A stretch of DNA of 22,616 bases from positions 1-22,616 of IMG/VR virus record IMGVR_UViG_3300048690_000040. The stretch is one strand, 5' to 3'. Origin of the DNA: a virus. A program made the translations under genes and the position numbers. Shown here one piece after another: positions 11,877 to 13,500 of the stretch (positions are counted from its first letter, which is position 1; each line of letters begins with the position of its first letter). Under the pieces are notes generated by a model. That model saw only the letters and a program-made list of their open reading frames with translations. It ran no database searches and had not been told where the DNA came from.

Positions 11877-12059
11877 TTATTCATCAATACCTAAAGCATC
11901 AAGAAGATCACAAAGCTTACCCATCGTAATAATACGATCATCTTCTTTTGGATCATTGTTCCAATATTCTTGATACACTTCTCTTGGTATTGCATGCCAG
12001 AGTTTTGTATATTGATTATAATGTATCACATAGTTGTGACTATTAATCTTCTTTAGCAT
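11877..12059 (-). CDS. Small hypothetical protein between thyX and terL
   Basis: This is a 60-residue protein starting MLKKINSHNYVIHYNQYTK, with aromatic-rich TKLWHAIPREVYQEYW and an acidic C terminus ending LCDLLDALGIDE. I use ATG 12059 rather than the in-frame TTG two codons upstream. The start overlaps the last 17 nt of thyX, and the stop lies 5 nt before terL, so it looks translationally coupled on both sides. No family is recognised. Confidence 0.55.
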   Translation of the reverse strand: MLKKINSHNYVIHYNQYTKLWHAIPREVYQEYWNNDPKEDDRIITMGKLCDLLDALGIDE

Positions 12060-12759
12060 ATCCAAATGCAGTTAGTGAGTGTTTGAATGGTTCCCAAGGC
12101 AACTCCTGCACAATGGTTAACATTTGATTAGCTATATCTCTTATCTCAACTTGTGCATGCTCGTCGTTTCTAAGCTTCTGAAATAACATAAAGCTTCTAA
12201 AGTTAAACATAACGTCAGCAGTAATCTGAGAGTTATATCCTTTGAAAAATCTTGCAGATTCTTTTGCCCGTTTTCTTCCAAGTATAGGTGTTAAATCTTC
12301 TAAACAGTTGTGATACAAATAGTTACCTATCTCTGAGTAGTCTTGTAATACACTAGCCCAAGTAGTTCCTTGTTTCCAAGATAACTCTCCGCCTTCATCA
12401 TTGCCATTTGAATCTTCATCATGGATAAACAAAGGCTTTGAAAGTTTGATATCAGCCCAGTCTTCTGGTACAAATATCTTATCTTCTTTTAGTTCTTTGT
12501 ATCGAGCAGATTCCCCATTAACAGCAACACCAATACGGTGTTTAAGAATGTGTATATGTGAGGCAATATCTGATGTAACCAGAAAGTGAAGGGATGATTT
12601 TTCAAACGGTGTGTGATGCCCTTCTTTTGCCAGCATATTAAGTAATGCAGGCATTCGATCTTTCTTTTCTTCAAAGTCTCTTGAAGTTGAGGTCCAAGCT
12701 GATAACGCATGCGTTTGATCGCCTCCATAAAATCCTATAAGTTCTACTGTATTATCCAT
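12043..12759 (-). CDS. thyX: Flavin-dependent thymidylate synthase ThyX
   Basis: This 238-residue FAD-dependent enzyme makes dTMP from dUMP with methylenetetrahydrofolate and NADPH, supporting phage DNA synthesis. The substrate-binding signature region is GHHTPFEKSSLHFLV (about residues 47-61), then LKHRIGVAVNGESARYKEL (about 72-90). This corresponds to the family RHRxxSxNExSxRY signature, but with Lys for the first Arg, one extra residue and NGESARY in place of NExSxRY, as I recall for several phage ThyX proteins. Length matches the family. Its start overlaps the end of the Tad2-like gene by 8 nt (ATGGATAA), so the two are coupled. It precedes a small gene and terL. Confidence 0.9.
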   Translation of the reverse strand: MDNTVELIGFYGGDQTHALSAWTSTSRDFEEKKDRMPALLNMLAKEGHHTPFEKSSLHFLVTSDIASHIHILKHRIGVAVNGESARYKELKEDKIFVPEDWADIKLSKPLFIHDEDSNGNDEGGELSWKQGTTWASVLQDYSEIGNYLYHNCLEDLTPILGRKRAKESARFFKGYNSQITADVMFNFRSFMLFQKLRNDEHAQVEIRDIANQMLTIVQELPWEPFKHSLTAFGYAKED

Positions 12760-13003
12760 TTGTTACTGGGGTCCAATCGTCTGCTAACATATCCGTTTGT
12801 GATGCCAACCAAGGTACTCTTGATTTTGGTGCGTCTGGATTTGTTGTATCCAAACCTGTTGTATCAATGTAGATATACGGGGATGTCATCTTCGACTCCG
12901 CAGTTGGTAGTTGTAACTTAATAAAGATACCCTTACCATTCCATCCAGCTCTGGCCATCTTGTGACCATACTTTAGTTGCTCTAACGCTTCTCCAAATGT
13001 CAT
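12752..13003 (-). CDS. tad2: Tad2-like anti-Thoeris protein (DUF2829 family)
   Basis: This 83-residue protein has the DUF2829 signature: an N-terminal MTFGEALEQLKYGHKMARAGW followed by NGKGIFIKLQ, then a loop and PYIYIDT, and a C-terminal LASQTDMLADDWTPV. DUF2829 proteins have been described as Tad2, which sequesters the cyclic ADP-ribose-type signal made by Thoeris ThsB and so blocks activation of the ThsA effector. The fold is a small oligomeric cup. Length and the GW(N)GK and DWxxV motifs fit the family, so family assignment is firm and the anti-Thoeris role is inferred from it. It follows the Acb2-like gene by 17 nt and overlaps thyX by 8 nt. The leader ATATAAACCAACAAG precedes the ATG. 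Confidence 0.85.
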   Translation of the reverse strand: MTFGEALEQLKYGHKMARAGWNGKGIFIKLQLPTAESKMTSPYIYIDTTGLDTTNPDAPKSRVPWLASQTDMLADDWTPVTNG

Positions 13004-13020
13004 TATCTTGTTGGTTTATA

Positions 13021-13305
13021 TTAGTACTGTAAAGTTAAAGTTTTAACTACCATCATCTGTGCAGCAAGGATATCCATTAATGCACGTTTGGTCAAATCTT
13101 CTTTTAGAGAAGTTAATGTACCGTGTCGGTAGCTATCTAACTGCGAGTTATAAATTAAGTCTGCTAACTCAGCGCAAAGAGCTTTTGCTTTTGCAACCTT
13201 GTCATCACCTGATGGATTAAATGTTTTACCAACTAGTTTTTCTCCATGAGTTAATTCTGTTGGATGGGGAGTTGCTTCAAGATCAGTGTAGGTTTCTTGT
13301 GTCAT
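13021..13305 (-). CDS. Acb2/Tad1-hairpin-like cyclic nucleotide sponge (putative)
   Basis: This 94-residue protein has a short N-terminal tail, then GKTFNPSGDDKVAKAKALCAELADLI (about residues 26-51) and a second helix ending ALMDILAAQMMVVKTLT (about 75-91). As I recall, a two-helix hairpin with 'tFNPSGxxxVxxiKxxxAxlIdxi' and a C-terminal 'AxxxxexAqMxxVKxxT' is typical of small phage proteins annotated as Acb2/Tad1-hairpin domain. Acb2 assembles as a hexamer that binds CBASS and Thoeris nucleotide signals. The direct neighbourhood of a Tad2-like gene supports the call. I am confident of the helical hairpin and less sure of the family. The start follows the leader ATAAACCAAACCAAA exactly. It is 17 nt from the Tad2-like gene and probably in the same operon. 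Confidence 0.6.
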   Translation of the reverse strand: MTQETYTDLEATPHPTELTHGEKLVGKTFNPSGDDKVAKAKALCAELADLIYNSQLDSYRHGTLTSLKEDLTKRALMDILAAQMMVVKTLTLQY

Positions 13306-13321
13306 TTTGGTTTGGTTTATA
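13306..13321 (-). promoter_or_regulatory. ATAAACCAAACCAAA leader of the anti-defence pair
   Basis: In sense orientation TATAAACCAAACCAAA abuts the ATG at 13305. A second copy, ATATAAACCAAC, precedes the Tad2-like start within the 17-nt gap (13004-13020). No Shine-Dalgarno sequence is seen, as expected in Bacteroidota, where A-rich leaders drive initiation. Confidence 0.45.
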
Positions 13322-13328
13322 CTATTAT

Positions 13329-13355: not shown

Positions 13356-13358
13356 CTG

Positions 13359-13500
13359 CTGTAGTGGAAGGATTCGAACCTCCAAGTGGACTTTAGCTAT
13401 AGGACATTGCGCGCTTGTGGTCAACCCATTACCCTACGTTTATCAGTAGCTCCACACCCCCGAGACAGGAGGGCACGTCTGCCAATTTCATCACACTACA
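13359..13500 (-). tRNA. Oversized class II (Leu-like) tRNA, 142 nt, anticodon unclear
   Basis: In minus orientation the locus starts with acceptor strand TGTAGTG and ends with CACTACA plus G, a perfect 7-bp acceptor stem. A Leu-type D arm (ATGAAATTGGCAGACGT), with the conserved G pair in the loop, follows U8. A T arm GGAGG-TTCGAAT-CCTTC (one G-U pair) lies next to the 3' acceptor strand. An anticodon-arm candidate CCCTC-CTGTCTC-GGGGG has U33 and would read GTC, but position 37 is a pyrimidine, so the anticodon is uncertain. Between this arm and the T arm lie about 73 nt instead of the usual 15-20. That stretch can fold as one long arm: GTGGA/TCCAC, GCTA/TAGC and TAGGG/TCCTA. CCA is not encoded. 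It could be a real tRNA with an enlarged variable arm, an intron-bearing or composite gene, or a decaying tRNA. Confidence 0.6.

Follow-up and report, generated by a model that had tools for sequence, protein, structure and literature searches.

A tad2 gene and a gene for a distant Acb2-like hairpin protein form a recurrent pair, a putative two-sponge module, in a probable Bacteroidota phage

Introduction

Several small phage proteins are known to act as sponges for the nucleotide signals of bacterial defence systems, Tad2 as a tetramer that blocks Thoeris and Acb2 as a hexamer. As reviewed in PMC12043709, Tad1 and Tad2 bind gcADPR, and Acb2 binds cyclic di- and trinucleotides; the same review ties the binding of cyclic dinucleotides by Tad2 proteins to an insertion between strands 2 and 5. 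The ligand differs between Tad2 proteins, since the Tad2 of a Myroides prophage (MoTad2) is reported to take His-ADPR and that of phage SPO1 gcADPR (PMC13299392), and SPO1 Tad2 is reported not to interact with 3'3'-cGAMP (PMC11722364). SPO1 is also an example of one phage with sponges against both Thoeris (Tad2) and CBASS (Acb4), the latter being described as structurally unlike Acb2, Tad1 and Tad2 (PMC11722364). Carrying an Acb2 sponge creates a dilemma for the phage, as CBASS is evaded and Panoptes is triggered: 14 of 15 T4 escapers were mutated exclusively in acb2, and natural acb2 defects are found in T2 and PaMx41 (PMC12657218).

Here we describe a phage locus in which a tad2-like gene lies directly behind a gene for a small helical hairpin protein, an arrangement that had been singled out from the sequence as an anti-defence pair upstream of thyX (hereafter the original prediction). 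Both proteins belong to known kinds, and the two-sponge phage is already exemplified by SPO1; what is new here is the recurrence of the pairing. No description of an adjacent Acb2-like and Tad2 pair was found in the literature searched, a search that most subscription-journal papers fell outside.

Results

The pair lies upstream of thyX and both genes look maintained

The window, by which we mean the whole stretch of DNA analysed, is the complete 22,616-base IMG/VR virus record IMGVR_UViG_3300048690_000040 (positions 1 to 22,616), which is probably a genome fragment. The large terminase encoded in the window is 23–26% identical to those of crAss-like and Flavobacterium psychrophilum phages (best 20 of 116 records). 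By this sequence comparison the phage is a distant relative of crAss-like phages, and because its terminase resembles those of both groups, the host is probably a member of the Bacteroidota. The following features are relevant to the analysis:

12043..12759, minus strand: thyX, thymidylate synthase complementing protein (PF02511, E = 2.4e-26)
12752..13003, minus strand: tad2-like gene, encoding P0001 (83 aa), short form without the long middle insertion (PF11195, E = 5.3e-23, 81.8 bits)
13011..13026, minus strand: one copy of a 16-nt direct repeat (tad2 leader and end of the hairpin gene), 88% identical to 13312–13327
13021..13305, minus strand: Acb2/Tad1-hairpin-like gene, encoding P0002 (94 aa), FNPS clade (profile intermediates; AF2 model)
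13312..13327, minus strand: the other copy of the direct repeat (hairpin gene leader), which pairs with 13011–13026

The coordinates and motifs given in the original prediction are all correct: both open reading frames are on the minus strand, the hairpin gene lies upstream of tad2 with a gap of 17 nt (13004–13020), and tad2 overlaps thyX by 8 nt (12752–12759). The segments FNPSGDDKV and AAQMMVVKTLT are indeed present in P0002, and they make up the conserved core of its family. Upstream of the pair are a tRNA-like element, two functionally unassigned genes and an exonuclease gene (phrog_298), and downstream are thyX and the genes for the large terminase (phrog_6681), PhoH and the portal (phrog_6547). 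In the lineage of the window, dN/dS values ranged from 0.03 to 0.33 for the hairpin gene (15 pairs) and from 0, with unchanged amino acids, to 0.34 for tad2 (36 pairs), the pairs not being independent in either set. Since these values are well below 1, both genes look to be under selection to preserve the protein.

The two genes had also been noted to share a leader motif, and this motif is present in front of both, as TATAAACCAAAC at 13310–13321 for the hairpin gene and TATAAACCAACA at 13009–13020 for tad2. The window contains 14 matches to it with at most two mismatches, versus 5.2 expected, and some of these precede other genes, hence a pair-specific leader was rejected and the motif is a general leader of this phage. 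Promoter-like sites of the sigma-70 type were not in excess near the pair (3 found versus a shuffle mean of 2.3), and the same regulatory-site scan found no terminator-like site there.

P0001 is a short-form member of the Tad2 family

The Pfam profile PF11195 aligned to residues 1–77 of the translated stretch at a score far above its curated cut-off of 25 bits, and solved Tad2/AcrIIA7 chains matched P0001 with E-values from 1.5e-13 to 1.6e-7, among them SPO1 Tad2 (gp34.65; E = 4.9e-10) and ModTad2 (chain 9eib; E = 1.6e-7). The DUF2829/Tad2 signature reported for the 83-residue protein is thereby confirmed, and by sequence homology, which is solid, P0001 is a member of the Tad2 family. It belongs to the same length class as SPO1 Tad2 and ModTad2, although its sequence similarity to them is only moderate. 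From the name alone we infer that ModTad2 is the MoTad2 of the Myroides prophage.

The alignments with SPO1 Tad2 (residues 6–89 of 90) and ModTad2 (6–87 of 89) form one stretch of near full length, and those with chains that carry the annotation CRISPR inhibitor, AcrIIA7 or SptTad2 are broken into two stretches at the ends. Counted on these alignments, the span from GWNG to DW is 58 residues in P0001, 62 in SPO1 Tad2 and 80 in chain 8kbi_A, which we take to be HgmTad2. By this count, the insertion linked to cyclic-dinucleotide-binding Tad2 proteins is absent from P0001. Because the insertion is missing, and because the likewise short SPO1 Tad2 is reported not to bind 3'3'-cGAMP, the expected ligands of P0001 would be ADPR-type signals only.

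P0002 is linked to the Acb2/Tad1 hairpin superfamily through intermediates

P0002 alone did not match PF24729 in the Pfam searches (E up to 1, 5 and 0.01), P0002 queries of Pfam, PHROGs, NCBIfam and the PDB returned nothing relevant, and its close relatives L006–L008 gave no PF24729 match either. A tblastn search of named phages yielded 9 records, all below 60% identity and including Providencia PS3, Pasteurella Pmp11 and DSL-LC05. The PF24729 cut-off of 27 bits was passed by the relatives of P0002 in DSL-LC05 (40.4 bits) and Pmp11 (42.5 bits), and the proteins of Aaphi23, PS3, L009 and L011 stayed below it; T4 Acb2 scored 71.4 bits. Within the aligned clade, composed of the window and IMG/VR sequences, 25 of the 31 members matched PF24729 with E up to 0.01.

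A profile from which the lineage was excluded was built from 66 hairpin sequences at most 45% identical to P0002, using 20,000 shuffles of P0002 as the null. With this HMM, both P0002 (E = 2.1e-13) and T4 Acb2 (E = 0.016) scored above all 20,000 shuffles. A wider HMM of 117 hairpins found P0002 with E = 2.7e-26, but its score for T4 Acb2 (E = 8.3) did not rise above those of shuffles, and neither profile recovered p26 Acb2 (E = 9.9 and 24). Compared profile to profile, the FNPS clade and T4-type Acb2 matched weakly, with probabilities of 16.5% and 9.1% over 19–20 C-terminal residues, and the clade profile matched designed helical proteins and a keratin chain among PDB sequences, and no Acb2 chain. 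Seven hairpin residues are invariant across 35 aligned sequences (F29, V37, K41, Q83, M84, V87 and K88), and the segment TxGEKxVGxTFNPS is conserved in the FNPS clade and not seen in the T4-type Acb2 alignment. A single plasmid match was recorded, in Arsenophonus. The hairpin of locus L141 has near relatives at 3 loci.

The profile evidence, taken through intermediates, supports P0002 as a distant member of the Acb2/Tad1 hairpin superfamily, within which we class it as Acb2-like and not as Acb2. The hairpin identity assigned to the 94-residue protein is in this way backed by homology through PF24729 and the lineage-excluded HMM, but not by a distinctive fold match. With Acb2 (T4 Vs.4; p26, PDB 8h2j) it shares a small stand-alone hairpin, a predicted helix layout, an aromatic residue near the N terminus, AxMxxx[KR] in the C-terminal helix and family matches through intermediates. 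It differs from Acb2 in having no direct Pfam match, no distinctive structural match and a conserved segment of its own, in having three residues fewer between the aromatic residue and the next Lys, and in having Thr in place of Phe82. Tad1 has the PF24729 hairpin in common with it, by family name, but also has an N-terminal beta-sheet domain (PMC12043709), which is not in the model of the 94-residue P0002, where neither helix nor strand precedes residue 20.

The AF2 model of P0002 (mean pLDDT 88.4) contains helices at residues 20–25, 35–60 and 66–91 and no strand, so that the protein is predicted to have the helix layout given for Acb2 (PMC12043709; PMC10419184). A control model of T4 Acb2 showed two long helices only (13–45 and 50–81), which makes helix layout a weak discriminator. 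When compared with the P0002 model, chain 8h2j_A (Acb2 with cGAMP) reached Z 6.3 (rmsd 3.1, 64 aligned residues) and rank 19, below unrelated helical proteins, and 8h2x_D reached Z 5.5. For the T4 Acb2 control, 8h2j_B had Z 8.9 (rmsd 4.2, 85 aligned residues) and a rank of no better than 13 among helical proteins, so that Z fails to distinguish genuine Acb2 pairs from the helical background. Foldseek of the P0002 model against the PDB listed no Acb2 chain among the best 50 of 53 rows, whereas for T4 Acb2 the p26 Acb2 structures (8h2j and 8h2x) came right after its own structure (8h2j_B: E = 0.11, probability 1.00). Since Foldseek recovers p26 Acb2 from the T4 Acb2 model and, among the rows listed, not from that of P0002, P0002 lies at a greater distance from p26 Acb2 than T4 Acb2 does; the missing PDB match shows neither a different nor a new fold. 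The best two fold matches of P0002 in BFVD bear the name Acb2/Tad1 hairpin protein (E = 1.6e-3 and 4.1e-3; 40% and 36% identity). A structural search of both proteins had been proposed together with the original prediction: P0001 matched solved Tad2 chains by sequence, and the match of the P0002 model to solved Acb2 did not rise above the helical background.

In a register inferred from the ends of the PF24729 stretches, Phe29, the Phe of FNPS and invariant across the 35 sequences, aligns with Tyr8 of T4 Acb2. Acb2 is reported to lose dinucleotide binding when Tyr8 is changed to Ala, and its Phe82 to stack on the ligand (PMC12657218). P0002 has Thr91 at the place of Phe82, so the stacking residue is not kept, but this is not decisive because p26 Acb2, which was solved with cGAMP, has Ala at this position and the residue is therefore not kept in all Acb2 proteins. 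If the Val-x-x-x-Lys register holds, the invariant Lys41 perhaps sits on Lys23 of T4 Acb2, which corresponds to Lys26 of p26 Acb2 and presumably has a role in Acb2.

The pairing recurs in other phage contigs

In the first 11 close loci, tad2 lies right behind the hairpin gene in 8 and not in the other 3. A larger survey comprised 186 hairpin-containing loci, reduced to 139 distinct contexts and then to 106 clusters at 90% protein identity; at least 2.9 kb of downstream flank was available in 119 of the 139 contexts, and both sides were covered in 82. Tad2 was found in the available flank in 11 of the 106 clusters, always on the same strand, with 3–353 nt between the matched parts and none further out, and it lies downstream of the hairpin in 10 of them and upstream in one (L273). 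Four of these 11 clusters belong to the window's own lineage, and L141 entered the survey through a Tad2 query. In the remaining 95 clusters no Tad2 was detected in the available flank, using a Tad2 HMM that was built around the window type and may miss some. None of 35 T4-type Acb2 loci had a Tad2, and starting from Tad2, a hairpin was present in the available flank of 10 out of 80 loci.

The paired loci vary in their details. The hairpin stop codon overlaps the tad2 start codon (TAATG) in L006, L007, L008, L106, L219 and L222. The Tad2 proteins of L219 and L222 are degenerate, the record of L219 still passing the PF11195 cut-off (40.6 bits), and the cluster of L232 and L235 has Tad2 in one of its two members. 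That all paired Tad2 proteins share one length was not borne out, since measurement at the paired loci gave values from 49 to 64 residues (L094 was unmatched by the pattern). The scan of neighbours took no more than two ORFs per locus, each 150 aa or longer, giving 69 ORFs from 36 other hairpin loci; both ORFs of a 37th locus, L098 of the window lineage, were set aside. Among the first 25 of 86 families, and without a baseline set, DNA polymerases and exonucleases dominated the recognised neighbours and portals or terminases were few, and a conserved packaging neighbourhood for the hairpin is not supported. The predicted setting among nucleotide-metabolism and packaging genes therefore applies to this phage, with its thyX, terminase and portal genes, but is not general among hairpin loci.

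The window lineage carries the hairpin gene as an accessory cassette

The Tad2 proteins of L102 and L142 are 100% and 99% identical to that of the window, yet both loci are without the hairpin gene, which was not found in the records of L102, L142 and L105, records that may be fragments. The distance between the tRNA-like element and the tad2 start is 363 nt in the window versus 62 nt in L102, and 446 nt in L005 versus 145 nt in L142, a difference of exactly 301 nt in both pairs. The 16-nt direct repeat holds both leaders and has a start-to-start spacing of 301, so that the length missing equals the repeat spacing exactly. In L105 a remnant of the hairpin gene, its start (MTQEVYTDLEMTPT), reads in frame into tad2, and this fusion speaks for loss of the hairpin gene there. 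L005, L142 and L105 each have a called tRNA-Cys gene, the window and L102 have none called, and because all four combinations of hairpin gene and tRNA-Cys gene occur among these closely related phages, recombination or repeated loss is favoured. The hairpin gene is thus an accessory cassette in this lineage, and is probably not essential because it is cleanly absent in relatives. Loss of the hairpin gene with retention of tad2 would fit the published CBASS/Panoptes dilemma.

Discussion

We consider it reasonably likely that the pair is a two-sponge counter-defence module, in which Tad2 acts against Thoeris and the hairpin against CBASS by putative signal binding, and its recurrence in other phage contigs makes such a module plausible. 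In this model, Tad2 would sequester an ADP-ribose-type Thoeris signal (gcADPR or His-ADPR), so that the Thoeris effector stays off, and an oligomer of the hairpin protein would sequester CBASS cyclic di- or trinucleotides, with Phe29 in the role of Acb2 Tyr8 and perhaps Lys41 in that of Lys23, so that the CBASS effector stays off. Together, the two sponges would cover both signal classes. The ligand scheme of the original prediction agrees with this for Tad2 and Thoeris signals, but it also had Acb2 binding Thoeris signals. The review gives cyclic di- and trinucleotides as the Acb2 ligands (PMC12043709), and an Acb2-like protein would consequently be expected to cover CBASS, not Thoeris, signals. 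Recombination between the two leader repeats would add or remove the hairpin gene as a cassette of 301 nt, in line with a gene that helps against CBASS and may carry a cost where the host has a sponge-sensing system, e.g., Panoptes. A more far-reaching version holds that the short-form Tad2 and the FNPS hairpin are a selected recurrent module, of which the CBASS half is an on/off cassette that is repeatedly removed through leader-repeat recombination, both states being kept by CBASS versus Panoptes-type pressure. We think that this version is unlikely to be correct in full.

It might also be by chance that two common accessory genes lie next to each other here, in a gene-collecting region and without functional coupling. 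Tad2 was detected in the available flank of only 11 of the 106 hairpin clusters, 4 of these 11 belong to the window's lineage, and the reverse count, 10 of 80 Tad2 loci, is similarly in keeping with chance. However, a mere collection of genes does not sit easily with the finding that Tad2 is in all 11 clusters on the same strand and within 353 nt, with none further out, or with the overlapping stop and start codons of the six loci listed above, and we find coincidence a somewhat doubtful explanation. A slightly more doubtful one is that the FNPS hairpin, as an oligomeric accessory protein of phages, combines the Acb2/Tad1 hairpin fold with a different job, e.g., in packaging, virion assembly or with another nucleotide. 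The hairpin gene adjoins lysis, terminase or virion genes in Aaphi23, PS3, DSL-LC05 and Pmp11 and is near a tail lysozyme gene in EcP1, and both the clade-specific TxGEKxVGxTFNPS segment and the lack of a distinctive fold match to Acb2 are compatible with such a role. Yet its neighbours vary, with RusA in FCL-2 and Erf and an exonuclease in elemoA, the 36 other hairpin loci lie mostly by DNA polymerases and exonucleases and show few portals or terminases among the families listed, Tad2 pairing is found in several contexts, and the clean absence of the gene in relatives indicates a protein that is probably not essential.

For the other half of the pair, the best solved matches by E-value carry the names 'Inhibitor of Type II CRISPR-Cas system' and AcrIIA7, which raises the question of whether P0001 is an AcrIIA7-type anti-CRISPR rather than an anti-Thoeris protein. 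We judge this quite improbable, because the matches to those chains are split in two, 8kbi_A having 22 additional residues in between, whereas SPO1 Tad2 and ModTad2 align with P0001 in one near-full-length stretch.

If the two-sponge reading is true, Acb2-type sponges would reach into the large and hardly annotated FNPS clade, in phages of Bacteroidota and other bacteria, and sponges against two signalling defences would be found in a compact pairing. The natural variants with and without the hairpin gene would then bear on the trade-off between CBASS evasion and the triggering of sponge-sensing immunity.

A tRNA-like element upstream of the gene pair

Upstream of the hairpin and Tad2 genes lies the following element, the middle part of which is very long:

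13358-13500, minus strand: tRNA-like element of 143 nt, with acceptor, D- and T-arm sequences of tRNA

Neither ARAGORN with default settings nor Rfam gave a match for this element, and with relaxed settings and introns allowed, ARAGORN called a tRNA-Val with a 47-nt intron at these positions. When seven related loci were scanned by pattern matching, the element was found in five (L102, L142, L105, L006, and L106), and L005 and L008 gave no match to the pattern. One inner stem showed paired changes across the window and relatives (GTAGGG/CCCTAC, ATAGGG/CCCTAT, and GTAGGA/TCCTAC), with two G-T pairs in the window copy. In L005, L142, and L105 a normal tRNA-Cys(GCA) gene is placed behind the tRNA-like element, and no such gene was called in the window or in L102. 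Its presence and absence occurred in all four combinations with those of the hairpin gene.

Genes close to the hairpin genes

In several phages, chaperonin genes are located close to hairpin genes. GroES is annotated approximately 0.8 kb downstream of the hairpin gene of phage DSL-LC05 (locus L014, 3526-3774), and 4 of the 69 ORFs neighbouring hairpin genes matched GroEL.

Leader motif and common N-terminal tail

Motif matching located the leader at several positions:

2350, 2631, 5693, 13009, and 13310, minus strand: TATAAACCAAMC-type leader

With up to two mismatches, the window contains 14 matches versus 5.2 expected, a number reached in none of 100 shuffles. Genes start directly after the copies at 2350, 5693, 13009, and 13310, and the motif is probably a general leader of the phage.

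An N-terminal tail of the MxxExYTDxE type is present on three different proteins, the hairpin protein, Tad2, and a small HYNxYTxLW protein resembling the product of 11877-12065:

L094:3524, L105:2956, L247:3356, L250:1160 (other loci), and window 13305: MxxExYTDxE-type tail

Possibly, this tail represents a common 5' end that has spread via recombination at the leaders.
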